Positions 10,603-60,326 of a DNA stretch of 64,000 nt are shown piece after piece. The position numbers and the translations under genes are program-made. The notes below the pieces were generated by a model. The model did not search any database and was not told the DNA's origin. It saw only the letters and a program-made list of their open reading frames with translations. Origin of the DNA: a virus; the IMG/VR virus record IMGVR_UViG_3300032334_001259, positions 248,001 through 312,000 of that record; one strand, written 5' to 3'. Numbering within the stretch: the stretch's first letter is position 1; each line of letters starts with the position of its first letter.

Positions 10603-10832
10603 CCTACGTCCAAACTATCTTTAAAAATTGGGTTCTTTTTTGTAGCTTCTGCTTCTGCACGATAACGTTTGTTAATTTCTTCCTGGTAGGTATCAACAAC
10701 ATTACGCATTTGCTGTATCATGACACCGTTGCCCATACGACCAAGCCATGCCATTTTCTTGTGTAAACCGTTAACTGTTTCTAAAAGTTCATCAAGTGTT
10801 TTGCCACTTAAATCACTCATAAGAGGATGCAT
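10599..10832 (-). CDS. Small helical hypothetical, 77 aa
   Basis: Two predicted amphipathic helices (about 8-30 and 38-62) joined by a Gly-rich turn (LGRMGNG), resembling small helical proteins of T4-like phages. The start overlaps the MazG-like stop as TAATG. Function unknown. Confidence 0.65.
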   Translation of the reverse strand: MHPLMSDLSGKTLDELLETVNGLHKKMAWLGRMGNGVMIQQMRNVVDTYQEEINKRYRAEAEATKKNPIFKDSLDVG

Positions 10833-11248
10833 TATAGATCACCTTGTTTACGATTTTCACTATGCCAAGCATCAAATTTACCGCCTGGATAGCGTGATTC
10901 TAACTTCTTAACATTTTCATTAATTACATCATTTGGGTCAAGACCAAGTGCGGTGCAAGCATTTACCCAATACCATATAATATCACCAAGTTCACGCTTC
11001 ATATGAAATACATTTTCTTCATTAAGTGGTTTACCTTGAAAGAAAATCTTCTTAATAATTTCATTAAATTCGCCACTTTCGGCACTTAATCCCATGCCAG
11101 CAGTCAATAATAATGCGGGATTAATCTTGGTTTTGTCATCTTGATAATTGCTTAAATAGTCAAATCTGTCTAGAAAAGCATAATTGTGTTTACTTTCTTC
11201 ACTGGTTACTACGGTAACAAATTCTTGGTAAAGTTTTAAATCAGTCAT
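10832..11248 (-). CDS. MazG-like nucleotide pyrophosphohydrolase
   Basis: 138 residues of the all-alpha NTP-PPase (MazG/dUTPase-2) fold. The metal-binding helices carry ESGEFNEIIKK (about 56-66) and RELGDIIWYW (about 85-94). Such phage enzymes hydrolyse (d)NTPs or dCTP/dUTP and are linked to nucleotide-pool control, and possibly to ppGpp levels. Expression appears doubly controlled: a 9-bp hairpin holds the ribosome site, and a promoter lies inside it (see 11255-11294). Confidence 0.8.
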   Translation of the reverse strand: MTDLKLYQEFVTVVTSEESKHNYAFLDRFDYLSNYQDDKTKINPALLLTAGMGLSAESGEFNEIIKKIFFQGKPLNEENVFHMKRELGDIIWYWVNACTALGLDPNDVINENVKKLESRYPGGKFDAWHSENRKQGDL

Positions 11249-11254
11249 TAAAAT

Positions 11255-11294
11255 ACTCCTGATATAATATAGTTATTATTAAATCAGGAGTCAA
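11255..11294 (-). promoter_or_regulatory. Promoter inside an RBS-sequestering hairpin
   Basis: A perfect 9-bp inverted repeat ACTCCTGAT (11291-11283) and ATCAGGAGT (11263-11255) with a 19-nt loop precedes the ATG at 11248. The downstream arm contains the AGGAG ribosome site. A promoter is interleaved: TTGACT (11294-11289), a 17-nt spacer and TATATT (11271-11266), so transcription would begin within the right arm. Read-through RNA from upstream would form the hairpin and hide the site; RNA from this promoter would not. This is the arrangement known from T4 genes e, soc and 49. Confidence 0.72.
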
Positions 11295-12210: not shown

Positions 12211-12224
12211 TATATTTATTTATG
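12211..12224 (-). promoter_or_regulatory. Late promoter-like AT box
   Basis: CATAAATAAATATA on the minus strand upstream of the ATG at 12193, overlapping the end of the large virion gene. A TTGGAAA ribosome site lies between. It matches the TAAATA late boxes elsewhere in the window. Confidence 0.5.
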
Positions 12225-15200
12225 TAGCAGTTTCCAAGATATTTTGTAATGGGAACTTCAAGTAACTATCATTTGCAAATGGCAACTGATATTGATCTTG
12301 ATTATTGATGAATTGTGTTTTTGTGTTATCAAATGTGGTTGGTGATTTCAATTGTAAAGTTTGAAAATTACCTTCTTCATATTTTGGCACAGTCTGATTG
12401 CCAACACCAACATTTTTACTACTATACTGCCAAGTTTGACCAGCCTTTGCACCAAGTTGAACTAAAACAACATCGTTTAATGCAATTTCTTGAACAAATG
12501 TTAATGATACTGTTCTATTAGATATGCTTATTTGCCAAACACCGCCACGTTTGTTTACCGTTGCAGAACCATTTTGAACTTCTGCATAACCTGGTATAAC
12601 CGCACCATTTTGATTCCAACCATCATTGTATAGTATTGGAAATTCTGTTGGATTATAGTTTTGTTGCGTGCTGAATACAACATACTTACCATCCCAATCA
12701 CCACTTTCATCACCATCCATACCGCCTATATCATTAATTTGGGTTATTGTAGAATTGTCTACATGATCAAATGGTATATCTAATGCATAACCAACGGTTG
12801 CTGTTGGTGTAATACTTAAAACATAACCAGTATCAAAAGTTGTATATTGTTTTGTATAAAAGAAACCAGTTGCAATGTCGTAATTTATATCTAGATTATT
12901 ATCAAAAATATAACGATCAGCAACAAATGGTACTAATTTAATATCATTTGGAACACCGTTCTTTAACAAATACAGCACACGCTCACCAGTGCCTGGTTTT
13001 AAATAAGCTAAAACTGCCGCAGTTTGAAATCCTAATATTCTACCATCATTTTGAATACTTGTTTCCCACTGTGGTAATGTATTGGTATTTGTTTCACCAA
13101 TACCAACAACCAAGTCATTATTCATAAGAGTTAAATCATTTGGATATAATCTTCTACCGTCATTAATTAAAAAACTTGGTTGTGGAACACTTGGTGTTAG
13201 ATAACCATTTACATTTGTATAAGTTTTTGTATCTTCAATTAAATCAACATACACTACATCATAAAGTGCATTTCCGTCAGCATCAGTGGCAGTTGCGTAG
13301 TGATAATCACCAAAGTAGAATTTTTTATTAAAATGACGGCGTTGCATGACACTTATATAGTCACTTGCTTGGCTACTAGTTAAACCATATCCAACTAATG
13401 CTTTAATATCACTTTGTATTCCCCAATAAGGATCATTTGGACGATAGATATCTTCTAATTTAAAGTAATCAGTATTACCTAAAATTGTTGTAAGAATATT
13501 ACGTTTTGCAACGCTTGGTAAACAAACTATGTATAAGTTATCATATGGTTCATATGTAACACTATCCACTGTTAAAGTAAATGTTTTTTGTCCACTTATG
13601 TCCTGGCTGTAATCAGTTGCATTTATAATAATGGTATAAGTTCTATCAATTGTAGTTGGTGCTGCAGTGATACCATTTGTAGTATTTCTCACATCAAATG
13701 TTGTTGTTCCTTTATCTAAACTAAACTGTTGGAAACTTATACGACCACTTAAATTTCCATCATTTAATAAAGTTAGACCTTGTGGTATTTTACTTCCACT
13801 TGCAAGATAATAATATAATTGTCTACCACTTGCTGCAGTTGCATTTATTGATAATTGACTTATATCACCAGTATTCACAGTGCCTAAATTAGTTGGCGTA
13901 TTCCATGTTATTCCAAGACTTGTAGCACCTAAAATTGTTACTGTAAAAATACGATATTCACTTACTATAGTAGGTTCAATAATGCTATAAACTTGAACAC
14001 CAAAGCTATAACTTTGACTGACATAAGATTGTTCAGGAATAAATCCTGTCATCCAACCTGTTGTCCCGTCTAATGTTAAGCCAGGTGGTAAACTGAAATT
14101 GCTTTGATCCCATGGACTTGTATCCCATGGCACAGTATCAGCATCCCAACCAGTGCCAGTAGTGCCAACTATACTATATCCAACATTAATATTGTCGTAA
14201 TCTATACCTTCAAATTTAAATGCAAAGTAATTACCACTTGTAAATATTGCATAATCACCCATTGTTTCAGTTAATAGCAATGGACGGCGATAGTTAGTAA
14301 TGTCACTTGTAAAATAAGTTTCATCATCTGTTATAAGTGTATTATCAGCGGTTAGTGATTCATGATTGTAAACAACAATATTATAATTTTTTATGTCAAA
14401 ACTTTTTCCATCACTAACTTCAATTGTAAAGTAATATGTAATTTTTCCAAAACTAGTAAAAGTTTGACCTGGTGGAAGTAACAAATCAGTTTGATCATAT
14501 GGGACAGAATCCCAAGGATTTGCATCAATGTCCCATCCACTTGGAGGAATATAATTTGGAATAAGTGGACCACTTATAACACCATCAGTGCTTAAACTTG
14601 TTCCTAGTGGCAATGTTCCACTTAAAAGTGTAAATGTAAGGTTATCACTATTAAGATCAACTGCGCTTATTGGTATGCTTATAATAATACCATCAGTAAA
14701 CTCGCCTAACGTGGTATAATTGCTTGTAAGTAACTGTGGTGGATAGTTACCAGTAACTGTTATACTAAAACTTCGATCAGTAATTTTACCACTACTACTA
14801 AACGCACGAACAGTAAATTCACTTGTGCGATCTTGTGTAACTGCTTCTGGAACACCATCAATACTATATGTGTCTTTTGGATTACCTGTGACTTGTCCAC
14901 TGCTATCAATTTGCATACCAGCAGGTAACCTACCAGCAATAAGTGCATAATTTACATCTTGTCCATCAGGTTGTCCAGTAGGATCAACCGCCTGTAGTCC
15001 AATTTCAAAAAATTGTAGTGATTGAATTTTACCAAGGTTACCTTTTGGTGTAACCCATTCTGGATAACCTGTTCCATAACCTTGTGCTTGTTCTTCCGTC
15101 AAGATGTCAACTTGTTGATAAAAACTTTCACCAACAACATAGGGATAAACTGGTTGACCACTGCCATCCACACTACAAAAATATGCATAAGTTCCGCTTG

Positions 15201-16059
15201 GATAATCAGGTGTTACGCAATAACGACCATTGTGTGTATCTAAATCACCAGTGCCATTATACTGATAATCTTCTATAAACATACCCATAGGGTAAGTTAC
15301 CAAATCATATGCAGTCGTTGCAGCACGATAAGAACTCGGACGTAATCCGTAACCGCTCTCAAGGTCTTTTACACCACTATTTGCATCAAGAGGGTCAATA
15401 TATCCACTCGGACCATAAATTGGGAAACCATCTAAACTAAAACCAAGTATTTTACTATGCCCATCAGTATGAAATAAACTGCCATCAAGATATGGTATTA
15501 CATCAACTTCTGGTAAACCACGAACAGTTGAACTATATGGGCGTCCACCTAAACCACTTACCCAAATAGGTGCAAAATTATAATCGCTGTAAAAATAACG
15601 ACCTGTAGTTTTTGCACGACCACCCGCATAATCTTGTTTATACCAATGTTGTCCATCATCTATTTCATTTTGTGCTATTCCATTTGCATAACTTTGATCA
15701 AAATGGAAACCAGTAGGTGTTGTAAAACCAAAAGGAGGCAAAGTATCAGTACTTGATGAATAAATTGCAACACCATTTAGCCAAAAACCAACAATACCTT
15801 GTCCTACCGTTTGTGCATCTTCGGTTACAGTTTCACCACCACGCCAAACCCAACTGCGATTATAATATTGTGCAAGTGGAACTGTGCTTGCATAAATGCT
15901 ACCATATCCATGATATGGTATACCAGTTGCTGTTAAATTAATTGTATTTTGAAAATCGCCTGGATGAACTTCAACATTTTCTAAAAATGTCCAGTTACTA
16001 CTGACATTTATAAGACGACCAAGTTGAAGGTTGGTTGCGAAACCATTATAATTAGGCAT
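12220..16059 (-). CDS. Large virion protein with YHYH and Ig/cadherin-like repeats
   Basis: 1279 residues, rich in Asn, Thr, Tyr and Gly, with no signal peptide. Residues about 190-310 match the YHYH domain pattern (GFSLDGFPIYGPSGY, later a Tyr-rich YAYFCSVDGSG segment). After it come several Ig-like, putative-Ig (He_PIG)-type repeats of the form LPPGLTL..GWMTG or LPLGTSLSTDGVISG (about 350-810). Such multi-domain proteins are long fibres or adhesins that touch the host surface. It is flanked by two other fibre-like genes and has a late promoter box 20 bases upstream. Confidence 0.75.
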   Translation of the reverse strand: MPNYNGFATNLQLGRLINVSSNWTFLENVEVHPGDFQNTINLTATGIPYHGYGSIYASTVPLAQYYNRSWVWRGGETVTEDAQTVGQGIVGFWLNGVAIYSSSTDTLPPFGFTTPTGFHFDQSYANGIAQNEIDDGQHWYKQDYAGGRAKTTGRYFYSDYNFAPIWVSGLGGRPYSSTVRGLPEVDVIPYLDGSLFHTDGHSKILGFSLDGFPIYGPSGYIDPLDANSGVKDLESGYGLRPSSYRAATTAYDLVTYPMGMFIEDYQYNGTGDLDTHNGRYCVTPDYPSGTYAYFCSVDGSGQPVYPYVVGESFYQQVDILTEEQAQGYGTGYPEWVTPKGNLGKIQSLQFFEIGLQAVDPTGQPDGQDVNYALIAGRLPAGMQIDSSGQVTGNPKDTYSIDGVPEAVTQDRTSEFTVRAFSSSGKITDRSFSITVTGNYPPQLLTSNYTTLGEFTDGIIISIPISAVDLNSDNLTFTLLSGTLPLGTSLSTDGVISGPLIPNYIPPSGWDIDANPWDSVPYDQTDLLLPPGQTFTSFGKITYYFTIEVSDGKSFDIKNYNIVVYNHESLTADNTLITDDETYFTSDITNYRRPLLLTETMGDYAIFTSGNYFAFKFEGIDYDNINVGYSIVGTTGTGWDADTVPWDTSPWDQSNFSLPPGLTLDGTTGWMTGFIPEQSYVSQSYSFGVQVYSIIEPTIVSEYRIFTVTILGATSLGITWNTPTNLGTVNTGDISQLSINATAASGRQLYYYLASGSKIPQGLTLLNDGNLSGRISFQQFSLDKGTTTFDVRNTTNGITAAPTTIDRTYTIIINATDYSQDISGQKTFTLTVDSVTYEPYDNLYIVCLPSVAKRNILTTILGNTDYFKLEDIYRPNDPYWGIQSDIKALVGYGLTSSQASDYISVMQRRHFNKKFYFGDYHYATATDADGNALYDVVYVDLIEDTKTYTNVNGYLTPSVPQPSFLINDGRRLYPNDLTLMNNDLVVGIGETNTNTLPQWETSIQNDGRILGFQTAAVLAYLKPGTGERVLYLLKNGVPNDIKLVPFVADRYIFDNNLDINYDIATGFFYTKQYTTFDTGYVLSITPTATVGYALDIPFDHVDNSTITQINDIGGMDGDESGDWDGKYVVFSTQQNYNPTEFPILYNDGWNQNGAVIPGYAEVQNGSATVNKRGGVWQISISNRTVSLTFVQEIALNDVVLVQLGAKAGQTWQYSSKNVGVGNQTVPKYEEGNFQTLQLKSPTTFDNTKTQFINNQDQYQLPFANDSYLKFPLQNILETAT

Positions 16060-16092: not shown

Positions 16093-18306
16093 TTAAACTC
16101 TTATCCAGCGTGGACCACCTGGTAATTGTTGTGGTATTGGATTGCCATTATAAGGTGCATATTTTACATAATGCCAACTATAAGGAGTTGTAGAACTTAT
16201 GCTACTAACATTTCCTTGAACAGTGCTATCATTTGCAATAATACGCAAACTGCTTACACTGATGTTACTACTAATAGTAATTCTTGTTCCATCACTTATA
16301 TTAGCATTTGCAGGCATGTAAACGTTAGCAACAGAAACTGTTCCGCCATTTGTATAATCAAGAATAAGAGTTGATGTATTGCCAGTTAAAGTAACATTAT
16401 TACTACTTGAATTTGCAAGGTTTGCAAATGTGTAACCATTAATTGTAACATAACTTAACACATATGTGTTACTTGCTACGCCGTTTGCACTTAATAAGTT
16501 TGCAGTAAAATATGCTGGTATGTATGCTGCAACTTGAGTATTACTATAAAGTCCTGTTAGATATTGTGAACTACCAATAAAGTATGTTGCGTAAACATTG
16601 CTTGTAGTATTAAGATTACCAGCATTAATATTACCACTGTAAGTTGGTAGATATGCTGCTGCAATAACATTACTATACAAACCAGTTAATAGACTACCAT
16701 TACCAATAAAGTAAGTGCCGCCAACATTACCAGTTGCTACAAGATTACCAGCACTTAAGTTGCCAGTATAAGTTGGTAGGTAACTTCCAATATAAGCACT
16801 TGCTTGTGTATTACCATACATGCCACTTAATGTGCTACCATTACCAAAGTGATAAGCAGCAGTAACATTTCCGCTCGTGGTTAAATTACCAACACTTATA
16901 TTACTTGAAACTGTTACGTTACCTGTAACTTGTAATTTATTGGAACCATCATCGGTTCCACCTAATACCCAACGTCCACTTGTAATACGACCTGCTTCAT
17001 TTGCTAACAAAGTTCCATCAGTGTGGAATACGATTGCTTTACCAGTTGATGCAGTTCCAACGGCAATATTACCATTAGCAACATAAAGATAAGCATCATT
17101 TGGATATGTTATAGTGAAACTGCTGTTGTTATAATTGTTAGCATTAATACCAAGGTCAACAAAGTATGCACTATCATTACCATTGTTAGCAGTTGCTACA
17201 ATGTCTGCGCTTGTGCTGCTACCATTACCAATATTTTGGATGTTGATCTGTGTATAAGTTGTGCTGCTTTCAACAAATTGTGCAGTAAGATTTGTTAGCG
17301 GAACTGTGCCTGCTGGTCCTACTACAAGATCATATGATGAAACAAGATTATTTGCATTTACGTTACCAGTATAAGTTGCAAATGAACCAAATGTATTACC
17401 AGTTGTTACAATATTACCGCTGCTATAAATGTTACCACTTATACCCATACCACCTGTAACAACAACAGCACCAGTAATTGTGCTACTTGCTTGAGTTGTA
17501 TCTTTTAACCAAAGAGTTGTTGCATTAGCAAGAACTACATCACCTGTTCCATCAGCATCAATATTGATATTTGCATTGGTTCCACTTGGACTTGTGATAT
17601 AACTTGTTGCACTTACAACTAAATTAGCACCAGCACGTAGCGCAACATTACCAGCTACGTTTAGGTTGCTTGTAAGAACGTTACCATTATAAAGTGTCAA
17701 ATAAGCTGCAACATTACTATTACCATAAGCACTTGGTGTAATACCACTTAAGCCACTTAAGTAATAACCATTACCCAACACATATGCTGTAGTTGCAAGA
17801 TTACCAGCTGCTGCAATATTAGAATTACTATAAAGAGTTTGTATATTTGCAATTGCAATATTAACAGCAATAAGATTTCCAATTGTGTTAACATTAGGTA
17901 AACTATTACCACTAAAATTCTGTGCATTAACAGCAGTGCCAGCAGTAGTAGCATAAACTGCAGTAGTTGCTAATGTAGCACTACTTGCTACCCCACTTAA
18001 ATTACCTATGATTGGGTATAACGTATTTGTTGTAATTTGACCGTTAAATGTAGCATTATTAGCATACATTGTGGTGAAATTTGTTTGAGATGCAACAATT
18101 GCTGCACCATTAGCTACAACAACATTAGCACTACCAGGAGCAAGAGTAAGGTTAGCACCAGCAGTGTGAGTTTGATAAACATCACTGCTGTTGAGATTAC
18201 CAAATATTTGGCTAAAGTTATTATTTGTTTTTATATACGCTGTTCTAAGCGGGTCGCCAGTGCCATCATTACCAAATGCACCAACGTTAATAACCTCTTG
18301 TACCAT
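16093..18306 (-). CDS. Repetitive tail-fibre-like virion protein
   Basis: 737 residues. The N-terminus (VINVGAFGNDGTGDPLRTAYIKTNNNFSQIF) has the attachment-domain pattern seen in fibres of T4-like marine phages. The rest is Asn/Gly/Ser/Thr-rich beta repeat, including four tandem copies of a roughly 40-residue unit. A receptor-binding or side fibre is the best guess. Translation appears restricted to late transcripts by the hairpin at 18311-18339. Confidence 0.7.
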   Translation of the reverse strand: MVQEVINVGAFGNDGTGDPLRTAYIKTNNNFSQIFGNLNSSDVYQTHTAGANLTLAPGSANVVVANGAAIVASQTNFTTMYANNATFNGQITTNTLYPIIGNLSGVASSATLATTAVYATTAGTAVNAQNFSGNSLPNVNTIGNLIAVNIAIANIQTLYSNSNIAAAGNLATTAYVLGNGYYLSGLSGITPSAYGNSNVAAYLTLYNGNVLTSNLNVAGNVALRAGANLVVSATSYITSPSGTNANINIDADGTGDVVLANATTLWLKDTTQASSTITGAVVVTGGMGISGNIYSSGNIVTTGNTFGSFATYTGNVNANNLVSSYDLVVGPAGTVPLTNLTAQFVESSTTYTQINIQNIGNGSSTSADIVATANNGNDSAYFVDLGINANNYNNSSFTITYPNDAYLYVANGNIAVGTASTGKAIVFHTDGTLLANEAGRITSGRWVLGGTDDGSNKLQVTGNVTVSSNISVGNLTTSGNVTAAYHFGNGSTLSGMYGNTQASAYIGSYLPTYTGNLSAGNLVATGNVGGTYFIGNGSLLTGLYSNVIAAAYLPTYSGNINAGNLNTTSNVYATYFIGSSQYLTGLYSNTQVAAYIPAYFTANLLSANGVASNTYVLSYVTINGYTFANLANSSSNNVTLTGNTSTLILDYTNGGTVSVANVYMPANANISDGTRITISSNISVSSLRIIANDSTVQGNVSSISSTTPYSWHYVKYAPYNGNPIPQQLPGGPRWIRV
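16500..16880 (-). repeat. Tandem protein repeats in fibre gene
   Basis: Four imperfect units of about 40 codons, each containing a core like PTYTGNLSAGNL and ending in a form of TYFIGNGSLLTGLYSN. The repeat is visible in both DNA and protein and probably makes a triple beta-helix shaft. Confidence 0.65.
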
Positions 18307-18310
18307 TAAA

Positions 18311-18339
18311 AACTCCTGCGATATTATTTAGCAGGAGTT
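18311..18339 (-). promoter_or_regulatory. Late promoter inside an RBS-sequestering hairpin
   Basis: A perfect 9-bp inverted repeat AACTCCTGC (18339-18331) and GCAGGAGTT (18319-18311), with an 11-nt loop containing TAAATAAT (18330-18323). The right arm contains the AGGAG site of the fibre gene starting at 18306. Initiation from the loop promoter would fall at the start of the right arm and free the ribosome site; read-through RNA from the Fe-S carrier gene would fold and block it. The right arm is followed by TTTTT, so the hairpin may also act as a weak terminator for read-through. Confidence 0.75.
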
Positions 18340-18345
18340 ATTTTG

Positions 18346-18699
18346 TTAGAAACTAACGCTAGTACCACATCCACAGCCACCACTGGCATTAGGATTTTCT
18401 ACAACAAGTGAACTACTTATAAAATCAGTTTTATAATCAATAGTGCTACCAATTACATAAACATGAGCAGTGCAATCTACGATAAACTTTTGTTCATCAC
18501 CCAAATCAATGATGTCATCACGGTCTGGTGTGCCTTTTTCATCATATTCATTTGCATCAACTGGAAGCCAAAAATATTCAAATCCAGCACAACCACCACC
18601 TTGCAAACCAAATACAAGATGAGTTTTTTTCATCTTTTGTAGGGTATTTTTTATATGACTTTTTGCATCTTCTGTTAAATTTACAATATGGTCAGTCAT
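18346..18699 (-). CDS. A-type iron-sulfur carrier (IscA/ErpA/HesB)
   Basis: 117 residues, the usual length for the family. The three ligand cysteines are present: Cys37 in GGGCAGFEY and Cys109/Cys111 in the C-terminal GGCGCG. A-type carriers deliver Fe-S clusters to target enzymes. Three radical SAM proteins are encoded in this window, so a supply role for these is plausible (inference). It lies directly behind the IF-1 gene with no gap. Confidence 0.9.
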   Translation of the reverse strand: MTDHIVNLTEDAKSHIKNTLQKMKKTHLVFGLQGGGCAGFEYFWLPVDANEYDEKGTPDRDDIIDLGDEQKFIVDCTAHVYVIGSTIDYKTDFISSSLVVENPNASGGCGCGTSVSF

Positions 18700-18700: not shown

Positions 18701-18916
18701 TCATTTAAACCTATAAGTTATACGTCCACGAGTTAAATCATAAGGACTTAATTCAACACTTACTCGATCTTCTTCGGTAATTTTAATTTTGTTTTTACGC
18801 ATATTTCCACTTGTATATGCAAGTATTAAGTGTCCATTTACATCTACTCTAAAATTACCATTAGGTAGCACGTCAACAACCACTCCTTCTAAACTTACTA
18901 ACTCTTCTTTTGCCAT
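18701..18916 (-). CDS. infA: Translation initiation factor IF-1
   Basis: 71 residues with the OB-fold pattern of bacterial IF-1: [20 protein letters not shown], then [14 protein letters not shown], then [18 protein letters not shown]. Length and motif order match bacterial IF-1 (about 72 aa). IF-1 binds the 30S A site and modulates IF-2 and IF-3. A phage copy could bias initiation towards the many leaderless messages predicted here, but that is inference. It has no obvious promoter of its own. Confidence 0.92.
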
Positions 18917-33473: not shown

Positions 33474-33671
33474 GAGATCAATTCGGGTCTTAAGTACTTC
33501 TAATTCAAAGAGTTTTCCAAAGGCTTTACGGGCTTCCCGTTCACATTGGTCCTCTAACCTGTCAAAATGGTCTACTAACAGGTAGGCTTGATAGGAATAA
33601 AATACTAAAATAGCACATATTCCCATGCCCAATAACCAAGCCAAAAATAGCGACAAATAATATAATATCAT
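33459..33671 (-). CDS. Small single-pass membrane protein, 70 aa
   Basis: One hydrophobic helix (about 2-26) followed by a charged helical tail (DRLEDQCEREARKAFGKLFELEVL). Topology resembles small holin-associated or membrane-anchored regulators. The ATG is six bases after a -10 box: predicted leaderless. Confidence 0.6.
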   Translation of the reverse strand: MILYYLSLFLAWLLGMGICAILVFYSYQAYLLVDHFDRLEDQCEREARKAFGKLFELEVLKTRIDLLTNR

Positions 33672-35620
33672 GCTGCTATCATAGCATGATCTTGGGGTTT
33701 GTCAACCTTTAAATTTTCGGTTTTAATATGGGCAATACCAAAGTTTTCACGGCGTTTCCAGTAGATATATTCCAAATACTGTGCTTCGGTAAGATTAACA
33801 TCGCCATTATACTTGAATGTTACATGAACTGGTGTTTCAAGTTTAGTATTGTGCAGTAGATAATTGTAGAAATCGTAGTTGTATGTTCCAGTTACAGGAT
33901 AGTTTTTAAGTGTATGATAATCAATTACACTCTTGCGTTGGAAGTCAATCAATTCATCAATAAACTTCTTGTCAACTTTGTATGTCTTACGCACAAATGC
34001 TTCAACCAAATTAAGAACATGTTCGATCTTATTATTAGCAACAATACTAATAATAATCTTCCACATCAAACTCATGCGACGAATAGTAAAGTTATTAACC
34101 ATCATCTTTTCATTACCACCAGTCCAACTATCATAGAAGTCAGCGATAGATTGGAACTCATTGCGCATAAACTCATCGCCTTGAAAATATTCATACAAGT
34201 TTTCATAGAAGTCAGCATAACTTACGCCAAACTTTTTGTTCAATACACGTGCAACATAACTTGTAATACCATTGGTATGCAGACCCATAAGATAACAACT
34301 GAATATAAGTGACTTCTTAAAATCTTCTGGTGGCATATCTTTTGTTGCAACAGTGATTTCCACGCTCTCTTGCAAATCATCAAAGTTGTTTACACCATGG
34401 AAATAATCTGGTGCAAGGATTGTTTTAATTTGGAACTCATCACGTTGCGCCAAGTTAAGTTCAGCATTTTCAAGCAACATACTGATCCATACTTCAATAC
34501 CGTTGTGATTACCTGCTTCAAAGATGCGATAGAAGTTCTTGCGCCAAGTATCATATGTTTCACCTGGCAAACCAAGAATGAGTTCACTATAAACAGGAAT
34601 ATTTGCTTCTTCACAAAGTTTATAAATTTCACCTACACGGTTGATTTCAAGGTTCTTACGCTTAATATTAGCCAACACATCTTCATCAAGACTTTGGAAT
34701 GATACTGTTAAACCATAATTTGGGAAGTTACTGTTGATAAACTTGCTTACGATCTCAACAACTTCTTTCTTCTGGTTCTTGGCATAGTTAATAACATAGT
34801 TACGTGGATAACCATACTTGTAATTGGTTTCAATAAGTTTATCCGCAATCAACAAATCACGTTCTGGAAAAATACCAAAGTTAGCATCACAAATTGTAAA
34901 ATGGTCTAACTTGTTTTGTCCCATCCATTCAATTTCAGCAAATACACGTTCTAAATCAAACTGCTTAATCTTGCTTTGTGTGATACTACCCCAATCACAG
35001 AATGTGCACATATATGGGCAACCACGATTGGTTTCTAACATACCATTCCAAGTAACAAGTGGATTGTCTGCCATAATCTTTTGGAATAATCCGCTTGTAT
35101 ATGGACTTGGAATTTCATCAAGTTTATCAATACGTTTGCTTACACCAGTATCAACACGTTTACCATTATCGTTTACAAGAATACCCTTGACACTTTTTAA
35201 ATCGTCACGGTTAAGTAACATGTTTTTAAAACTGATTTCACCTTCATTCTTAATGACTACATCCATAAATGGATAACGTTCAAAGATGTCCATCTTTTCA
35301 ATCTGTGGTTCTGGACCACCAAATACAATCAATATATGCGGATATAATTTCTTAATAGTTTTAGCCAGTTTGTAATTATAATTACGATTCCAAATATATG
35401 TAGAGAAACCTACAATATCTGCATCTTTAAGTTTTTCAACAGCGACATCAATATCGTCTCGTCTCCATAACATTTCACCAAGTTCATATTGGTCAGTTAC
35501 TTCACTAAACTGACTTACATAACTCCACAGCAGTCCTACGCTGTAGGGTAGATAAAATGCGTTAAGGTGTGTTGGACCTTGTTGGAAGTTGACACTTACG
35601 AAGCTGATTTTCTTTTTCAT
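33668..35620 (-). CDS. B12-binding-domain radical SAM protein
   Basis: 650 residues from the ATG at 35620. The cobalamin-binding N-terminal domain (about 1-165, IVFGGPEPQ near 98-106) is followed by the radical SAM domain with Cys201, Cys205, Cys208 and a long unknown C-terminal region (about 420-650). Known relatives act on lipids, antibiotics or cofactors; the substrate here is unknown. A TAAATA late box is seven bases upstream. GC content is a little higher than in the other two radical SAM genes. Confidence 0.85.
   Translation of the reverse strand: MKKKISFVSVNFQQGPTHLNAFYLPYSVGLLWSYVSQFSEVTDQYELGEMLWRRDDIDVAVEKLKDADIVGFSTYIWNRNYNYKLAKTIKKLYPHILIVFGGPEPQIEKMDIFERYPFMDVVIKNEGEISFKNMLLNRDDLKSVKGILVNDNGKRVDTGVSKRIDKLDEIPSPYTSGLFQKIMADNPLVTWNGMLETNRGCPYMCTFCDWGSITQSKIKQFDLERVFAEIEWMGQNKLDHFTICDANFGIFPERDLLIADKLIETNYKYGYPRNYVINYAKNQKKEVVEIVSKFINSNFPNYGLTVSFQSLDEDVLANIKRKNLEINRVGEIYKLCEEANIPVYSELILGLPGETYDTWRKNFYRIFEAGNHNGIEVWISMLLENAELNLAQRDEFQIKTILAPDYFHGVNNFDDLQESVEITVATKDMPPEDFKKSLIFSCYLMGLHTNGITSYVARVLNKKFGVSYADFYENLYEYFQGDEFMRNEFQSIADFYDSWTGGNEKMMVNNFTIRRMSLMWKIIISIVANNKIEHVLNLVEAFVRKTYKVDKKFIDELIDFQRKSVIDYHTLKNYPVTGTYNYDFYNYLLHNTKLETPVHVTFKYNGDVNLTEAQYLEYIYWKRRENFGIAHIKTENLKVDKPQDHAMIAA
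33672..33705 (-). promoter_or_regulatory. Host-like promoter abutting small membrane gene
   Basis: TTGACA (33705-33700), a 16-nt spacer, TATGAT (33683-33678), AGCAGC, then the ATG at 33671. It overlaps the C-terminal codons of the radical SAM gene. Confidence 0.75.
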
Positions 35621-35633
35621 GATAAAATATTTA
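35621..35633 (-). promoter_or_regulatory. Late promoter abutting radical SAM start
   Basis: TAAATA (35633-35628), TTTTATC, then the ATG at 35620; no ribosome site. Confidence 0.55.
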
Positions 35634-36302
35634 TTGTCCTGTGATTTCACATAATTGTTTTATTGTAGTTATTTTACTATCTTGATTACATAAGTCAATA
35701 TACTTTTGTGTATCACGACTCCATTCAGCACCTGTCCACCATTCAAAACCTGATAACTTTGCTTTGTAAATAGAACCTTTTTCATATCCACTACCTATAT
35801 AGAGATAATTTAATCCTAATTGTGCTGCGCAGTTTACTTCAAAGTTTAACATATCTAATCCAAACTTATTTTTTGGATGCGGTATGTAGGCATTAAATTG
35901 ACTTTCTAATCCACCCGTATATTTTGCAAACTTTGTGAAACCAACTAATTCATCATTTACATAATACTCCATCCAACGATCACGTTCATTTGTTACAAAT
36001 GGGTCATAGATTGGTGGATATTTTTTGCTTGTAATATAAGTTTGCCAGATTTGTTTGTATAATTCTATATTTGGATTATTTTCTATAAAAAATATACGGC
36101 AGTTTTGTTGTTGATAATTTAGTTTCCAATTCGCAATACAAATACGTGTGCTACGTGACTGATACCATAGGTCATTATATAGCAACCAACCATTCGCTAA
36201 TGCTTCACCTTCTTCATGTGGTTCACATTGCAGATTTACATTATATAATTGTATACTGTTGTTTTCTTGTTGACCGTAATAGTGGTCATAAGTAATCTTC
36301 AT
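35631..36302 (-). CDS. Arginyl-tRNA-protein-transferase-like GNAT protein
   Basis: 223 residues from the ATG at 36302. The C-terminal part (LGLNYLYIGSGYEKGSIYKAKLSGFEWWTGAEW in overlapping pieces) resembles the end of ATE/Bpt aminoacyltransferases, which move Arg or Leu from tRNA to protein N-termini. The N-terminal Cys-rich motif of eukaryotic ATE is not seen. Its start is close to the divergent DUF1415-like and amidinotransferase genes, so the three may act on one guanidino or arginine-related substrate (inference). Confidence 0.6.
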   Translation of the reverse strand: MKITYDHYYGQQENNSIQLYNVNLQCEPHEEGEALANGWLLYNDLWYQSRSTRICIANWKLNYQQQNCRIFFIENNPNIELYKQIWQTYITSKKYPPIYDPFVTNERDRWMEYYVNDELVGFTKFAKYTGGLESQFNAYIPHPKNKFGLDMLNFEVNCAAQLGLNYLYIGSGYEKGSIYKAKLSGFEWWTGAEWSRDTQKYIDLCNQDSKITTIKQLCEITGQ

Positions 36303-38738: not shown

Positions 38739-38815
38739 TGGCGATCTCACGTGGACTCGAACCACGACTCTGCCGCTTAGAAGGCGGCCGCTTTGTCCAG
38801 TTAAGCTATGAGACC
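38739..38815 (-). tRNA. tRNA-Arg (anticodon TCT)
   Basis: A 77-nt cloverleaf with 7-bp acceptor GGTCTCA/TGAGATC, D-stem GCTT/AAGC, anticodon stem GCCGC/GCGGC with loop CTTCTAA, T-stem CGTGG/CCACG and an encoded CCA. The last 15 nt of the upstream gene overlap its 5' end. Confidence 0.95.
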
Positions 38816-39172
38816 ATCTAAATTAAATTCATCTTCCAAATATATTTTATCTACTTTTTGTATAAAGCTATTTGATAATCTTTTTGGTATAATTGTTTTA
38901 CATATTCTTATACTAACATCATGTGTTATTTTGTCAACTGCATTATTATGTCTTTGATCAATTACTAAACATAAAGTTTTACTAGCCTTATATATTTTAC
39001 TAAAAGTTGCCACACGGTTAGTAATGTATTCACTATAACCTACTTGAATTACTCCACCTTTGTAGGGTGTGTCTTGTGATACTTCAAACTCATCAATAAC
39101 TTTTAGATTTGTATCTTGACGAAGTAATTGTGAAATTTTTTCTATATCTTCAACAAGAAATAAAATTTTCAT
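38801..39172 (-). CDS. Hypothetical protein, 123 aa, running into tRNA-Arg
   Basis: A Lys/Ile-rich alpha/beta protein beginning MKILFLVEDIEKI, resembling a small Rossmann-like fold. The final codons lie within the tRNA-Arg gene, and the tRNA promoter is inside the coding region. It starts four bases inside the nucleosidase gene's end. Function unknown. Confidence 0.6.
   Translation of the reverse strand: MKILFLVEDIEKISQLLRQDTNLKVIDEFEVSQDTPYKGGVIQVGYSEYITNRVATFSKIYKASKTLCLVIDQRHNNAVDKITHDVSIRICKTIIPKRLSNSFIQKVDKIYLEDEFNLDGLIA
38910..38937 (-). promoter_or_regulatory. Host-like promoter upstream of tRNA-Arg
   Basis: TTGACA (38937-38932), a 16-nt spacer, TAGTAT (38915-38910), within the 123-residue gene, about 90 nt before the tRNA. 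Confidence 0.6.
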
Positions 39173-39702
39173 ACTAATATTTCTAAAAATTTTTCCGCAC
39201 CCTTGTGCATATTTTCTTTCCAGTGTGCACTTGCATCTTCATCTGCAAAATCAGTCATGTATTTGTAGCATTCAAATTGTTTATTAAATCTTTTACATAC
39301 TTTTGCAATAGCATATGCTTCCATATCAACAGCGTCAGTTAATAATTCAGGTTTAGATTTTACAAAGTTATCACCAGTGCTCAATGTGAACACACTATCA
39401 TTCAGAACAATAGGACCACCATCATCTTCAAATGGTGTATAACCTAACTGTGTAAGTGGTCTTGTATCCATATCACGTTGATAAACAGTTCCAATATTGA
39501 TTAACCGTCCAATAATATCTTTATTAAGTGCACCCGCTGTTCCATAGTTTATAATTTTAGAACAATTAGGATCTAATGCACAAATCTTCGTTGCGGCAAT
39601 AGTTGCATTTATTTTTCCAACACCAGTATAAACTATGCTTATACCAAGTGAATCAAACTTAATTGGAAATTCTGGTTCAAGTGCAACTAATATGTAAATC
39701 AT
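39169..39702 (-). CDS. MTA/SAH nucleosidase-like (PNP_UDP family)
   Basis: 177 residues, shorter than typical MTAN (about 230). VYTGVGKINATIAAT (about 24-38), INYGTAGALN (about 50-59) and VDMEAYAIAKVC (about 127-138) are the ribose, base and catalytic segments of nucleoside phosphorylases and 5'-methylthioadenosine/SAH nucleosidases. It could clear MTA and SAH from the radical SAM enzymes and methyltransferases and from the SpeD-like reaction (inference). It is immediately downstream of tRNA-Ser. Confidence 0.78.
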   Translation of the reverse strand: MIYILVALEPEFPIKFDSLGISIVYTGVGKINATIAATKICALDPNCSKIINYGTAGALNKDIIGRLINIGTVYQRDMDTRPLTQLGYTPFEDDGGPIVLNDSVFTLSTGDNFVKSKPELLTDAVDMEAYAIAKVCKRFNKQFECYKYMTDFADEDASAHWKENMHKGAEKFLEILV

Positions 39703-39716
39703 AATAAAAAAAATAA

Positions 39717-39802
39717 TGGCGGAGCGTATAGGAATCGAACCTATTCAACCTTTCGGTTGTACACATTAGCAGTGTGCTGCATTACCGGCCTGCCCACGCT
39801 CC
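39717..39802 (-). tRNA. tRNA-Ser (anticodon GCT)
   Basis: An 86-nt class II tRNA: acceptor GGAGCGT/ACGCTCC, loop CTGCTAA, long variable arm (CAACCGAAAGGTTG), T-loop TTCGATT and an encoded CCA. The 3' end of the homing endonuclease gene covers its first 37 nt. Confidence 0.95.
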
Positions 39803-40497
39803 ATTATTTTACTTATATCATCCTTTTTCCATACTGTCAACTTATTTTTAAACTGTTGCCATTTACAACGGTCTAAATCTGTTTCATAACCCTTAACTTC
39901 TAAATACCCACCCAATTCTTCAACATAAAAGTCTGGAGTATAGTGACTTATTTTACCAGATAAATTTACATAAGCAAATCTTTCAGTGTTTCTTTTCCAA
40001 TTCCAATTTTGGGAATCCATATATTGTGCAGCTTTAAGTTCCCAAGTTCCATCTAACAAAACTTCACCAGCAATAGGACTAATGTATTTTATTTTTTTGC
40101 ATCTACCCGCTTTTGGCATCCATCCAGTTTCATATCTTGATAAAATAATTTCTCTATGCCTGTCTCTAAATTTTTGTTTTTTTTCTTCGCTAAAAGTATG
40201 CCAATTTGTTTTTCCTAAATTTGCATTACGTAATTTTTCTTTTTGAATTATAGCACCTTGCGGTCCAAATATTTCATCGTATGTTTTTCCTTTAAGACTT
40301 GTTCCATTCGATGAACCTTTAGGATGTCCATTTTTCCAATAATTATTGCCTAAATCTTTTCTTAAATTTTTTATTTTTGAACGATTTATTTCTTTCATTC
40401 CATTACAGGAACTTGTAGATTTACAACAACAATTTTTTCCATTTTTTAATTTGTATTTTGCTTCTGTTCCGCAACCATAATCACATAAATCTGTCAT
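39766..40497 (-). CDS. Homing endonuclease-like protein fused into tRNA-Ser region
   Basis: 243 residues. The N-terminus has CDYGCGTEAKY and CCCKST (Cys cluster, possible zinc site); the middle has NUMOD3-like GKTNWHTFSEEKKQKFRDRH; the C-terminal domain has the PD-(D/E)xK core HYTPDFYVEELGGYLEVKGY. The last 28 or so codons are read from the tRNA-Ser promoter and the tRNA itself, ending at 39766. This indicates insertion directly upstream of the tRNA. Confidence 0.75.
   Translation of the reverse strand: MTDLCDYGCGTEAKYKLKNGKNCCCKSTSSCNGMKEINRSKIKNLRKDLGNNYWKNGHPKGSSNGTSLKGKTYDEIFGPQGAIIQKEKLRNANLGKTNWHTFSEEKKQKFRDRHREIILSRYETGWMPKAGRCKKIKYISPIAGEVLLDGTWELKAAQYMDSQNWNWKRNTERFAYVNLSGKISHYTPDFYVEELGGYLEVKGYETDLDRCKWQQFKNKLTVWKKDDISKIMERGQAGNAAHC
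39812..39840 (-). promoter_or_regulatory. Host-like promoter of tRNA-Ser
   Basis: TTGACA (39840-39835), a 17-nt spacer, TATAAG (39817-39812), with the predicted start a few bases before the tRNA 5' end. It lies within the coding sequence of the homing endonuclease. Confidence 0.75.
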
Positions 40498-40545
40498 ATA
40501 ATTATTTATACAAAATAATTAAAAAGGTGCTTTTAACCTCTAAAT

Positions 40546-40619
40546 TGGTAGGCGATGACAGAATCGAACTGCCGTAGCCGCCGTGTAAAAGCGGAGTTTT
40601 ACCATTAAACTAATCGCCC
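40546..40619 (-). tRNA. tRNA-Val (anticodon TAC)
   Basis: A 74-nt cloverleaf: acceptor GGGCGAT/ATCGCCT (one G-U), D-stem GTTT/AAAC, anticodon stem CCGCT/GGCGG with loop TTTACAC, T-stem GGCAG/CTGTC and an encoded CCA. Confidence 0.92.
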
Positions 40620-40629
40620 CAATAGTTTA

Positions 40630-40657
40630 TATATATCATATTATCCAATTTTGTCAA
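40630..40657 (-). promoter_or_regulatory. Host-like promoter of tRNA-Val
   Basis: TTGACA (40657-40652), a 16-nt spacer, TATATA (40635-40630); the predicted start is within a few bases of the tRNA 5' end. It overlaps the stop of the SGNH gene. Confidence 0.75.
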
Positions 40658-41228
40658 CTATTATTTTAAATAATTTTTCTGCCATTATTTCATGTGCAAT
40701 TTCATCAGGATGACCATCAGGCAGTTTATGTGGATATGTTATGCTACACATGTTTTCACTATTAAACCAAATATAATTGTTGTCAATATTTTGACAGTAA
40801 TGGTTAATAGGCATTACATCAAAGAATACATAAGGAACTTTATTGTGATTAAGATATGCAGAAAAAAGTTTTACTTGATTTATGAACTTTTCATAATAAT
40901 ATAATTCATCATAATAATCATGCCAGAATATATTTTCAAACTCTGTTAAACCACGGCGATTTGGAATGGTTGTAAATTTTTTACCAGTTTTATTATCTTT
41001 AAATTCTACACGACTTGGCTGTGTAAATCCGCAGACAACAAAGCTATTATGTAAATCTTTTTCAATTATACTTTGTATAATATGTTCATTACCCATGCCC
41101 TCTCGTGCAAGATTAATGACACTTAAGTTTAATTTTTCAGCCAGCAAATACGGCCAAGAATTAATTGCGTTCTTTAATCCATATCCACTGGTAAAACTAC
41201 AACCACTACATATTAATTTTGAAAACAT
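40641..41228 (-). CDS. SGNH/GDSL-type hydrolase-like, 195 aa
   Basis: Block I is CSGCSFTSGYG (GxSxT region; SFTSG); block V is DGHPDEIAHE near the C-terminus with the Asp-x-x-His-like DGHPD. It resembles small phage SGNH proteins that may deacylate or modify sugars or cell-surface polymers. It overlaps the next SGNH gene by 16 nt. Four such genes occur in this window. Confidence 0.7.
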   Translation of the reverse strand: MFSKLICSGCSFTSGYGLKNAINSWPYLLAEKLNLSVINLAREGMGNEHIIQSIIEKDLHNSFVVCGFTQPSRVEFKDNKTGKKFTTIPNRRGLTEFENIFWHDYYDELYYYEKFINQVKLFSAYLNHNKVPYVFFDVMPINHYCQNIDNNYIWFNSENMCSITYPHKLPDGHPDEIAHEIMAEKLFKIIVDKIG

Positions 41229-42022
41229 TCAACAATCTTTGGTAATATAAGTTGTAACCAATCAATATGTGCATTGTGACCAGGATGATTACCACATTTT
41301 GGATAATCTTTTGCCCATTCGTTAAATGCTGCATCACGATACCAATGAGTCCAGTCTAGATCATATAATCCACTATTGATAATATCATTTGGCTGTGGTT
41401 TAAAAAGTTCGTCACTAGCACTGCAAAAGAAATACGGTATGTTTCTTTGTTTACAAAACATTTCTAGAAACATCATTTCTTTTAATGAATTATAATTATG
41501 ATAGCTGTAATCACCAGTTACTTTATAAAAACTGTCACTTGCATGTACAATTCCAATTTCATTTAATTTATTATGTTGTTCAAGAAAAAATTTTCTTTGT
41601 TTTTCATCTAATCCGTTTGGGAAAAATTCCATCTTTTCATCAAAAGATAAACCATGCCATGCGTTAAAATTTATCCAATAATCGTCAATATCAAAACGTG
41701 CTGCAACAATTGGATTTTTAACTATAGTATTGTATGGGTGCATGTTGCGAATTCGTATTTCACTGCGATGAGTGTATGTCCACATAACCGCAACACATAA
41801 TTCTTTATCTTTATTATCATTAATTGCTTTTATAATACGGCGGCTAATAGTATTATTTGCACCACCTGGTTTAGCAACACAAATATATTCCATATTATAC
41901 TGCCTTGCTAAAAGAGCACTCCAAGTTTGTTGACTTGGAGTGTGTTCTGTGCTACTAAATTTATCATCACCTAGTTCACTTCCCCAAGTGAAACTATCAC
42001 CGCCTGCAATAAGGGTTGGCAT
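41213..42022 (-). CDS. SGNH/GDSL-type hydrolase-like, 269 aa
   Basis: Block I IAGGDSFTWGSE carries the nucleophile Ser11; block V is NHPGHNAH near residue 250 with His. A middle WTYTHRSEIR segment resembles the companion genes. Located between the other SGNH gene and the endolysin; its ATG shares one base with the endolysin stop. Confidence 0.75.
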   Translation of the reverse strand: MPTLIAGGDSFTWGSELGDDKFSSTEHTPSQQTWSALLARQYNMEYICVAKPGGANNTISRRIIKAINDNKDKELCVAVMWTYTHRSEIRIRNMHPYNTIVKNPIVAARFDIDDYWINFNAWHGLSFDEKMEFFPNGLDEKQRKFFLEQHNKLNEIGIVHASDSFYKVTGDYSYHNYNSLKEMMFLEMFCKQRNIPYFFCSASDELFKPQPNDIINSGLYDLDWTHWYRDAAFNEWAKDYPKCGNHPGHNAHIDWLQLILPKIVECFQN

Positions 42023-42636
42023 TAGTCACCTAATACTGAACGTGCTTTTTCCCAAAGATGTGTACGTTCTTCAAGACCAATGGTTCCACCATTAATAATC
42101 TTTGTGCACTTTACAATGTCACCAGTATCAGCTACTTCATTGCAACCATTTTGTTGAAAGAACCAACCAGCACTACGTGCTGCACCTTCTGGTGTAGCAA
42201 GATAATCACTGTTTTCTACAAGGTCCATGCCTAATGCTTCACCACATGCAGTGTAGTTATTCTTACCAGTTAACTGAATTAAACCACGACCACGAAAACG
42301 GAAACCATCGCCGCTGTGTTCATCACCATTACCCATACGTGAAGCATAAACACGATTAGCAATCTTTTCTGGTTGCTTTGCAAAATCATTTGGATCTACA
42401 TCACGGAAATATTTTGGAAATATCTTTGTAAGTGTTTCTGCTTTGTAGTTTAAATTTTCACTTACAGCACTGAACATACCACTTTCATGTGCACACTGTG
42501 CAAGAAACATAGCACAACGAGCGGGTGTATTAATTTCAAATTCATGCATTGCTTCATTAAGTGCATCACAATATTTCTCTAAATTCTCACCTTTTGCTTG
42601 TGGAAAAATTTCTTGTAGTTGTTCAAAAGTTGCCAT
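42022..42636 (-). CDS. GH19 endolysin (chitinase/muramidase-like)
   Basis: 204 residues of the glycoside hydrolase 19 family. AHESG with Glu51 and SENLNY with Glu60 are the catalytic region, and RFRGRGLIQLTGKNNY is the family signature. No signal peptide, so it needs the holin for release. GH19 phage enzymes cleave peptidoglycan. The lysis partners (holin, spanins) are at 3985-5372, about 37 kb away. AAGGAAA ribosome site; a TAAATAC box further up. Confidence 0.9.
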   Translation of the reverse strand: MATFEQLQEIFPQAKGENLEKYCDALNEAMHEFEINTPARCAMFLAQCAHESGMFSAVSENLNYKAETLTKIFPKYFRDVDPNDFAKQPEKIANRVYASRMGNGDEHSGDGFRFRGRGLIQLTGKNNYTACGEALGMDLVENSDYLATPEGAARSAGWFFQQNGCNEVADTGDIVKCTKIINGGTIGLEERTHLWEKARSVLGD

Positions 42637-42687
42637 TTTATATTTCCTTTTTGATTGTTATCAGTATTTACCATTCACCAACCTTCA

Positions 42688-42695
42688 TATAAATA
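42688..42695 (+). promoter_or_regulatory. T4-type late promoter TATAAATA
   Basis: A perfect box on the plus strand, then TCATT, then the ATG at 42701. A start six bases after the box coincides with the ATG: a leaderless late mRNA is predicted. Confidence 0.75.
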
Positions 42696-42700
42696 TCATT

Positions 42701-43582
42701 ATGTGTGTTATAGTTGCAAAATATTTTGATAATGTAGGTTGGGTTGGTGTAAAAAATCGTGATCGCAACTATGTTCCTGATTTAAGTTTTCGTAAAAAGA
42801 AAAATAAAAATACAGAAGTATTATATTTTTGGGATGATATTACACAATACTGTGAAGGCATGAATGACAGCGGAGTTTGTGTGTTATCTGCAAGCCTTAT
42901 GGTGCTAGATGATGAAAAAGAAATCACTGTTCGCACCAAGACACCAAGCAAAGATGGCGTAAAGATTCAAAAGGCATTGCGACTAACTGATATTAAAGCA
43001 GTAGCAATGAGTTTAATTAAACAAAAGCTACCAGGATGCACAATTATATTTGATCGTGAAACTTGTTATCTACTTGAAGGTGCATGGGCACCTGGTGGAT
43101 ATGAAGATAAAGATTACAAATATAAGATAGAAGAAATACCACATGACGAAACTGTTGCAAGAACTAATCACGGCGTATGGTTAAAGTGGGCAGGATATCA
43201 ATATAGCAGTGATGACAGTGAAACTGCCAGTGCTATAAGCAGTCGCAGTCGTTTAATCATTGCAGAACATATTGCAAAAAATGCTGAAACACCTGCACAA
43301 CTTATTGATTGGTTAACTAAAAAATATGTTGATAACTGGCAATTAAATGCACTACGTCTTACAGATGAAAAGAAAATGATGCGAACAACAGCACAACTTA
43401 TGTTAGTTCCAAAAGAAAATACAATGTTTGTTCGTCCAATTCAAAGTAATATTACTTTTAATTTTTGGAAACTTAATGGTAGTGATAGTAAACTTTGGGT
43501 AGAATTATTAAGTAATCGTGTGCTACGCAGTGGTGAAGATGATCCAAGTATTCCTACTAATTTAGGTCATATCACAGACTAA
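42701..43582 (+). CDS. Ntn-hydrolase-like cysteine amidase
   Basis: 293 residues beginning Met-Cys-Val-Ile-Val; removal of Met would expose Cys2 as the nucleophile of an N-terminal-nucleophile hydrolase (penicillin V acylase, bile-salt hydrolase or acyltransferase type). Supporting elements are WVGVKNRDRNY near 14-24 (NRD) and ARTNHGVWLKW near 150. It could hydrolyse an amide such as an acylated signal molecule. Read from a late promoter directly before the ATG. Confidence 0.72.
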   Translation: MCVIVAKYFDNVGWVGVKNRDRNYVPDLSFRKKKNKNTEVLYFWDDITQYCEGMNDSGVCVLSASLMVLDDEKEITVRTKTPSKDGVKIQKALRLTDIKAVAMSLIKQKLPGCTIIFDRETCYLLEGAWAPGGYEDKDYKYKIEEIPHDETVARTNHGVWLKWAGYQYSSDDSETASAISSRSRLIIAEHIAKNAETPAQLIDWLTKKYVDNWQLNALRLTDEKKMMRTTAQLMLVPKENTMFVRPIQSNITFNFWKLNGSDSKLWVELLSNRVLRSGEDDPSIPTNLGHITD

Positions 43583-43827
43583 ACTGGATGCCACATCATA
43601 CCCCAATCACTATCTACCCAACGTAGGGTAAAGTGAGTTGCATCTTCTGCTTTATCAAATTCAAAAACGACTTGAAATTTTCCTACAAGCGTTCCATCTT
43701 CAAAATATGAAAGTTCTGGATACTTAAAAACATAATTATTTTCAAGACAAAATCGTATCATTTCATCAATCCAATAATCTTTAGCTAAAACATGTTGATG
43801 TGGAATGTGAACTTTTACTTCTGTCAT
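43579..43827 (-). CDS. Small protein of the LRW-tail family, 82 aa
   Basis: A beta-alpha-beta-like protein with FDKAEDATHFTLRW near the end, matching the tail of the three small proteins at 31493-32132. It overlaps the convergent Ntn-hydrolase by four bases and starts 17 bases after tRNA-Leu. Confidence 0.62.
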   Translation of the reverse strand: MTEVKVHIPHQHVLAKDYWIDEMIRFCLENNYVFKYPELSYFEDGTLVGKFQVVFEFDKAEDATHFTLRWVDSDWGMMWHPV

Positions 43828-43843
43828 TTTAAAACTTTTTAAT

Positions 43844-43920
43844 TGGTGCCCACGGTCGGATTTGAACCGACACTGTGGCGATTTTAAGTCGCCTTTCTCT
43901 ACCTGTTGGAATACGTGGGC
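43844..43920 (-). tRNA. tRNA-Leu (anticodon TAA) with short variable loop
   Basis: A 77-nt cloverleaf: acceptor GCCCACG/CGTGGGC, D-stem TTC/GAA, anticodon stem GGCGA/TCGCC with loop CTTAAAA, T-stem GTCGG/CCGAC, encoded CCA. The variable loop is only ACAGT, although bacterial tRNA-Leu normally has a long class II arm. Confidence 0.85.
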
Positions 43921-43926
43921 ATTAAC

Positions 43927-44343
43927 TTAATCTACCACATCCATAGTGGCTTTACCTAATTCTTTATAACCTTTTGCAGTAGGATGGATTTTATCTTTAC
44001 TCAACCAATCTTTATGTAGTTTAATTGTGCCATCATTAAAATCTCTGGCAAGTGCTTCAATATATTCTATGGTTTCAGCACGAGTATCATTAGGTAGTAT
44101 CCAAATAACATATTGTGCGTCGATACGTTGACGGATCAACCAAAGATTTTCATGTGTGTGCATATCTTTAGAATCATTGGTGCTTAAACTTATAATAACA
44201 ATATTACTTGTCGGAAGTTTTGTGCTGTATGTCCCAAGAAAATCTTGTGAATTGATACCAACTTTAGCAATAGTCATGCAGTCACGACGAACATCACCAA
44301 GACCCTTTGCAATACTGTCACCTATAATCAAACAATCTATCAT
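43927..44343 (-). CDS. SGNH/GDSL-type hydrolase, 138 aa
   Basis: The clearest SGNH protein here: block I IIGDSIAKGLGD, block III ISLSTNDSKD, and block V KDKIHPTAKGY with Asp and His. Compact esterase size. It lies between tRNA-Leu and tRNA-Met with an AAGGAAG ribosome site. Substrate unknown, perhaps an O-acetyl group on surface sugar. Confidence 0.82.
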   Translation of the reverse strand: MIDCLIIGDSIAKGLGDVRRDCMTIAKVGINSQDFLGTYSTKLPTSNIVIISLSTNDSKDMHTHENLWLIRQRIDAQYVIWILPNDTRAETIEYIEALARDFNDGTIKLHKDWLSKDKIHPTAKGYKELGKATMDVVD

Positions 44344-44360
44344 AATACTTCCTTAATTTA

Positions 44361-60297: not shown

Positions 60298-60326
60298 TTT
60301 ATATATTATTGTATTAGTGCTGTCAA
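60298..60326 (-). promoter_or_regulatory. Host-like promoter of the ncRNA
   Basis: TTGACA (60326-60321), a 17-nt spacer, TATAAA (60303-60298). The predicted start at about 60291 coincides with the closing stem of the RNA. Confidence 0.75.

Follow-up and report, generated by a model that had tools for sequence, protein, structure and literature searches.

Why should a phage place a late promoter inside a hairpin whose 3′ arm carries the Shine-Dalgarno (SD) sequence of the gene that follows? The question is raised by a short inverted repeat in a virus record of 338,435 bp, of which we analysed positions 248001-312000 as one 64,000-nt stretch, hereafter the window. The initial annotation had described a perfect 9-bp stem at this locus, with a late box in its loop and AGGAG in its right arm, and had suggested that the arrangement follows a rule that may be general in this phage.

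Results

A late box and a Shine-Dalgarno sequence in one hairpin

The sequence confirms each element of that description. On the minus strand, window positions 18339-18311 read 5′ to 3′ AACTCCTGC-TAAATAATATC-GCAGGAGTT, followed by TTTAATG. The left (5′) arm AACTCCTGC (18331-18339) is an anti-Shine-Dalgarno sequence that would be present only in RNA reading through from upstream. The loop TAAATAATATC (18320-18330) contains TAAATAAT, and the core of a T4-type late −10 box, TAAATA, occupies 18330-18325. According to the T4 spacing rule, late transcription would start 6 nt past the box, at 18319, which is the first base of the right (3′) arm GCAGGAGTT (18311-18319). This arm holds the SD AGGAG of the downstream gene at 18317-18313, and only TTTA separates it from the ATG at 18306-18304. 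All nine stem pairs are Watson-Crick, five of them G-C. The hairpin is one of 20 perfect stems in the window (at least 8 bp, at least 3 G-C, loop of at most 20 nt), and one of five in the whole 338-kb record whose right arm contains an SD and is followed by the start codon of an ORF of at least 50 aa. RNA folding of the 74 nt around it gives −15.9 kcal/mol (z −2.25, with 6 of 200 shuffles equally good), and its pairing score exceeds that of every other late-box gene with a leader (47 in all). The predicted probability that AGGAG is unpaired is 0.000 in read-through RNA versus 0.86 in RNA from the inferred late start. An Rfam search of the window returned four tRNA matches only, the hairpin having no match above the gathering score.

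The gene behind the hairpin (16093-18306, minus strand, from our own gene calls) encodes a 737-aa product, a probable fibre or other structural protein. The name "fibre gene" given initially is likely to be right and is kept here: the product is repetitive and structural-looking and its gene adjoins other virion-type genes, but it has no Pfam or PHROG match. Compared as DNA with annotated phages, the gene gave no match either. Nearby, 12220-16059 (minus strand) encodes a virion-type protein of 1279 aa in which He_PIG Ig-like repeats accompany a YHYH domain. Upstream and co-directional lies an Fe-S cluster biosynthesis gene (Pfam PF01521; 18346-18699, minus strand), 39 nt from the fibre gene and with its stop codon 6 nt before the hairpin, which makes it a possible source of read-through RNA. 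Beside it, 18701-18916 (minus strand) encodes an IF-1-like protein (Pfam eIF-1a, E=1.7e-21). Neither of these two genes has a late box nearby. The best sigma70-like promoters are at 20932 and 21460, and a terminator-like hairpin at 20437-20415 could halt RNA from both, which would speak against read-through from them. Elsewhere, the window carries a phage-encoded B12-binding radical SAM protein (33668-35650, minus strand) and five tRNA genes (Arg, Ser, Val, Leu, Met) scattered among other genes at 38739-44436 (minus strand).

Two classes of late box in a T4-related jumbo phage

The phage is a jumbo phage related to T4. Its record encodes a major capsid protein of the T4 type and, for late transcription, a gp55-type sigma (a 282-aa ORF matching phrog_12791, 'sigma factor for late transcription', E=1.3e-78). 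Our gene statistics are based on a simple caller of our own, which gave 364 genes, their starts and a coding fraction of 91%. Throughout the record, boxes resembling TAAATA/ATAAATAT are strongly enriched upstream of genes, and the strongest upstream k-mers are CTTGACA (the sigma70 −35) and TAAATATT / CATAAATA (the T4 late box). This enrichment indicates that the two promoter classes distinguished initially are real and, together with the gp55-type sigma, that the box in the loop is a genuine late box.

T4 late transcription starts about one helical turn downstream of the late box (PMC2988020). In our phage, the spacing between TAAATA and the start codon, counted from the last base of the box, is bimodal, with 31 sites at 4-7 nt, none at 8-14 nt and 47 genes at 15-28 nt. 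The 8-14 nt gap is likewise nearly empty in three related records (G001, G002 and G003), and the same scan of T4 found no site at 4-8 nt and a cluster at 23-29 nt. At 18 nt, the fibre-gene hairpin belongs to the far class. Applied to this class, the T4 spacing predicts leaders of about 10-16 nt for most members and places the SD close to the 5′ end. In the near class, TAAATA stands 4-7 nt before the ATG (peak at 5) in about 30 genes of the whole record; the window examples are 42701-43582, 49068-49964 and 49986-50699 on the plus strand, and 60323-61324 and 61302-62051 on the minus strand. Several orthologous pairs share such a near-ATG box, with their starts aligned at residue 1. Given the spacing, near-class late mRNAs are predicted to start at or beside the A of the ATG and to be leaderless. 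No paper on leaderless T4-type late mRNAs was found in the literature searched. Given this prediction, the phage-encoded IF-1 homologue deserves attention.

SD-masking stems are concentrated on late-box genes with a leader

The genome scan for further cases that the initial annotation called for was run on the whole record. Each gene was given a gate score, defined as the best stem between its upstream sequence and its leader, and the null was obtained by permuting the upstream halves among genes, which were assumed to be exchangeable. Among the 47 late-box genes with a leader, eight scored at least 16 versus 0.63 expected (maximum of 2 in 60 permutations), and six scored at least 18 versus 0.28 expected. 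Splitting at the inferred start instead led to the same outcome, 8 versus 0.58. No excess of scores of at least 16 was seen among near-ATG-box genes (0/31, 0.55 expected), sigma70-promoter genes (1/49, 0.83 expected) or genes without a promoter box (3/237, 2.6 expected). The suggested rule therefore holds for late-box genes with a leader, and it recurs in related records.

We counted ten gates, at 264093 (the fibre-gene hairpin), 333397, 234949, 67731, 325856, 119090 and 313186, and, more weakly, at 132738, 319525 and 318027. The gene at 67731 encodes the tail sheath (PHROG E=2e-191). All ten masked genes have a same-strand neighbour no more than 100 nt upstream, versus 33 of 48 unmasked late-box genes with one within 150 nt (hypergeometric p about 0.04 by our own arithmetic); in three of the ten, this neighbour has a late box of its own. 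For five gates (264093, 234949, 325856, 119090 and 313186), folding predicts an SD accessibility of less than 0.02 when RNA reads through and of 0.40-0.87 when it begins at the inferred start. It rises from 0.16 to 0.71 at 333397 and from 0.28 to 0.60 at 132738, and the predicted difference is small or absent at 67731, 318027 and 319525. The site at 12237 is not among the ten despite its high score, since the stem there extends to both sides of the inferred late start and leaves most of the box outside. Nor was every perfect SD hairpin taken as a case; the one at 211321-211346 (loop of 4, 54-aa ORF) resembles a bidirectional terminator.

Pairing persists while arm sequences change

The excess is also found in relatives. 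G001 has four late-box genes scoring at least 18 versus 0.15 expected; G002 has one, with a score of 24, versus 0.05; the excess in G003 is weak, one gene at 16 or more versus 0.18. The fibre orthologue of G001 (16449-18689, protein 69% identical), one of the four high-scoring genes there, carries CTCCTGC-GCTAAATATTGT-GCAGGAG, and a stem of 7-9 bp with the box in its loop is kept in three fibre orthologues, this one and those of L160 and L161 (8-9 bp). In the orthologues of L162 (= L026) and L163, the stem is cut to CCTGC/GCAGG and SD accessibility in read-through RNA rises to 0.35-0.40, so the gate is not essential for the fibre gene. TAAATA is invariant across the five aligned fibre orthologues. 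Arm swaps confined to the fibre or the 234949 family produced no signal; since the arms are nearly identical among these relatives, such swaps are uninformative, and only divergent groups inform. The fibre gene family alone provides no covariation evidence, its arms hardly varying.

Such divergent groups exist for the tail sheath. Its relatives have the arm pairs GTCTATCC/GGATAGAC and TCTATTCC/GGAATAGA, CTTTTTTCAAT/ATTGAAAAAAG in L057 and L060, and GTGGTATATTTCT/AGGAATATACCAC in L051, where the arm is shifted upstream. Over 16 divergent groups, the own-arm pairing was 18.0 versus 13.8 (sd 0.6) for swapped arms, and 0 of 5000 derangements reached the own-arm value. At the 313186 gene, three lineages have unrelated arms, AATCCTC/GAGGATT, ACCCTTGTAACT/AGTTACAAGGGT and AAACCC/GGGTTT, with the box always inside. 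Judging from these comparisons, pairing on late genes appears to be kept by selection while the arms get replaced.

A mirror image at mazG

The initial annotation had also proposed that the fibre-gene hairpin repeats the logic of a structure at 11255-11294. This stood in part. The hairpin ACTCCTGAT..ATCAGGAGT (11255-11291, minus strand) does mask the SD of mazG (10832-11248) and does contain a promoter, but the arrangement is a mirror image, because the promoter enclosed is of the sigma70 type, with TTGACT at 11294-11289, a 17-nt spacer and TATATT at 11271-11266, the −35 overlapping the left arm. RNA from this local promoter would be free, and read-through RNA from the upstream structural genes would be masked. 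Thirteen relatives keep 8-14 bp of the hairpin, some of them with compensatory changes in the two arms (GAT/ATC to GAG/CTC in L105; CTCCTTATATAA/TTATATAAGGAG in L120); in another clade (L085, L090 and others), the promoter is kept and there is no convincing stem. With sequences split after the −10, seven divergent members gave an own pairing of 24.3 versus 19.4 when swapped (0 of 3000). At a score of at least 18, mazG is the one sigma70-promoter gene found, versus 0.22 expected; a single gene does not establish a class, but its conservation is clear.

Discussion

We consider it probable that the hairpin gates translation according to where the mRNA begins, and that the fibre gene is translated mainly from its own late promoter. 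Read-through RNA from the upstream Fe-S gene would contain both arms and, as folding suggests, form the 9-bp stem that hides AGGAG, leading to poor translation. At late times, a gp55-type sigma would bring the RNA polymerase to the TAAATA in the loop, and transcription would start at or beside the first base of the right arm. Because the late RNA would lack the left arm, its SD would lie free in the 13-nt leader GCAGGAGUUUUUA. The sequences themselves show the hairpin, the excess of such elements at late-box genes, their recurrence in relatives and, in other genes of the set, pairing kept while the arms change; for the fibre gene, we infer where late RNA starts, that upstream RNA reads through and how translation responds.

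Could the structure have a simpler function? The hairpin might be chiefly the intrinsic terminator of the upstream operon, the overlap of SD and late box resulting from compact packing; it begins 6 nt past the upstream stop codon, TTTAATG follows the stem and GTTTTT spans the stem end. However, the short loop, G+C-rich stem and direct T run of an intrinsic terminator are not found together here. The 11-nt loop is long for such an element, our terminator scan (loops of 3-8 nt) did not contain this hairpin, and the short T run is broken by AATG. Moreover, no T run follows the stem at most other gates (234949 ATATGATG, 313186 AATATG, 119090 ACTTAAATG, 67731 AAATG), and termination would not explain an excess restricted to late-box genes with a leader. 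We therefore judge this reading improbable. Still less do we believe that the repeat works at the DNA level, serving as a binding site or extending the promoter (CCTGC-TAAATA), with only incidental RNA pairing. Such an element would fit the invariance of CCTGCTAAATA in the five aligned fibre orthologues, including those with a shortened stem, yet no such flanking sequence occurs at other late promoters, and the relatives of the sheath and 313186 genes change the arm sequence while keeping its complementarity to the leader. That the repeat arose by chance in an A+T-rich intergenic region, where the 20 perfect stems of the window and a single-sequence fold z of merely −2.25 might place it, is hardly credible in view of the permutation test, the recurrence in related records and the hairpin kept in three diverged orthologues.

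A further proposal is a variant of the translation gate and overlaps with it. The gate may isolate dose rather than time, blocking upstream late transcripts as well as early ones, so that output depends on the gene's own promoter only. The three masked genes whose upstream neighbour has its own late box speak for this, as does the mazG version, which encloses a sigma70-type promoter downstream of structural genes. At the fibre gene, whose Fe-S and IF-1-like neighbours have no nearby late box, timing fits equally well, and we hold dose isolation to be possible but on balance doubtful.

Returning to the translation gate, we tentatively speculate that this lineage builds starts meant to work only in RNA from their own promoter, through three parallel designs: a late box within an SD-masking hairpin, a late box 4-7 nt before the ATG, and a sigma70-type promoter within an SD-masking hairpin. 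If so, the near-ATG-box starts would give leaderless late mRNAs and, in read-through RNA, would be without an SD, and the mazG mirror image would keep an early gene silent when late RNA reads through from upstream. We know of no T4 counterpart for the near-ATG-box design or the mazG-type mirror image, and none was found in the literature searched. The SD-masking gate is a recurring design on late genes here, the tail sheath included, and our scan offers a simple route to spotting such gates in metagenomic phages. Together with the leaderless mRNAs predicted here and the mirror image at mazG, the gates make it testable whether translation is tied to the promoter of origin in large phages.

The mechanism by which a late promoter and SD masking are combined is already known from T4. 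In T4, the known SD-masking hairpins mostly concern genes for lysis, homing and a few other functions. New in our phage are the scale, the presence of gates on the tail sheath and probable fibre genes, and arms that turn over while their pairing is maintained. Hairpins of this kind with a late promoter have been established or described for T4 e, soc, 49, I-TevI, I-TevII, I-TevIII and segB and for Aeh1 mobE (PMC3014915, PMC2988022); the mechanism was shown experimentally for e and I-TevI (PMC3014915, PMC2988022), and the structure lowers synthesis from e about 100-fold (PMC3014915). At e, soc, 49 and I-TevI, the early read-through RNA is masked and the late RNA starts inside and is free, as we propose here. 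These are, however, a handful of T4 genes, whereas about ten genes are concerned in our phage, where, unlike in those four, the right arm of several gates begins at the inferred +1. The leader of I-TevII, the endonuclease of the nrdD intron, is almost the same drawing as the fibre-gene hairpin, CCTCGTA-TAAATATGAA-TACGAGG (PMC2988022): in both, the left arm abuts the late box and the box is in the loop, the I-TevII right arm holding the SD GAGG. I-TevII is nevertheless a homing endonuclease within the intron of another gene, whereas the gene behind our hairpin is probably structural and has an ordinary gene upstream. In Aeh1, an RNA hairpin also sequesters the SD of mobE and a late promoter is present (PMC2988022), but this is a homing endonuclease gene in another T4-related lineage. 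Finally, judged by its tail sheath (42.5% identity), the Pseudomonas jumbo phage PA5oct (Wroclawvirus) is one of the best-matching cultured phages. In the 42.6-kb stretch of PA5oct that we examined, most late boxes are 20-53 nt from the start and none is at 4-7 nt; before the ATG of EST35_0209 (L282 36309-36352), GTCTCCGT..ACGGAGAC surround a GATAAATA late box. PA5oct is a laboratory phage and would allow an experimental test of the gate.
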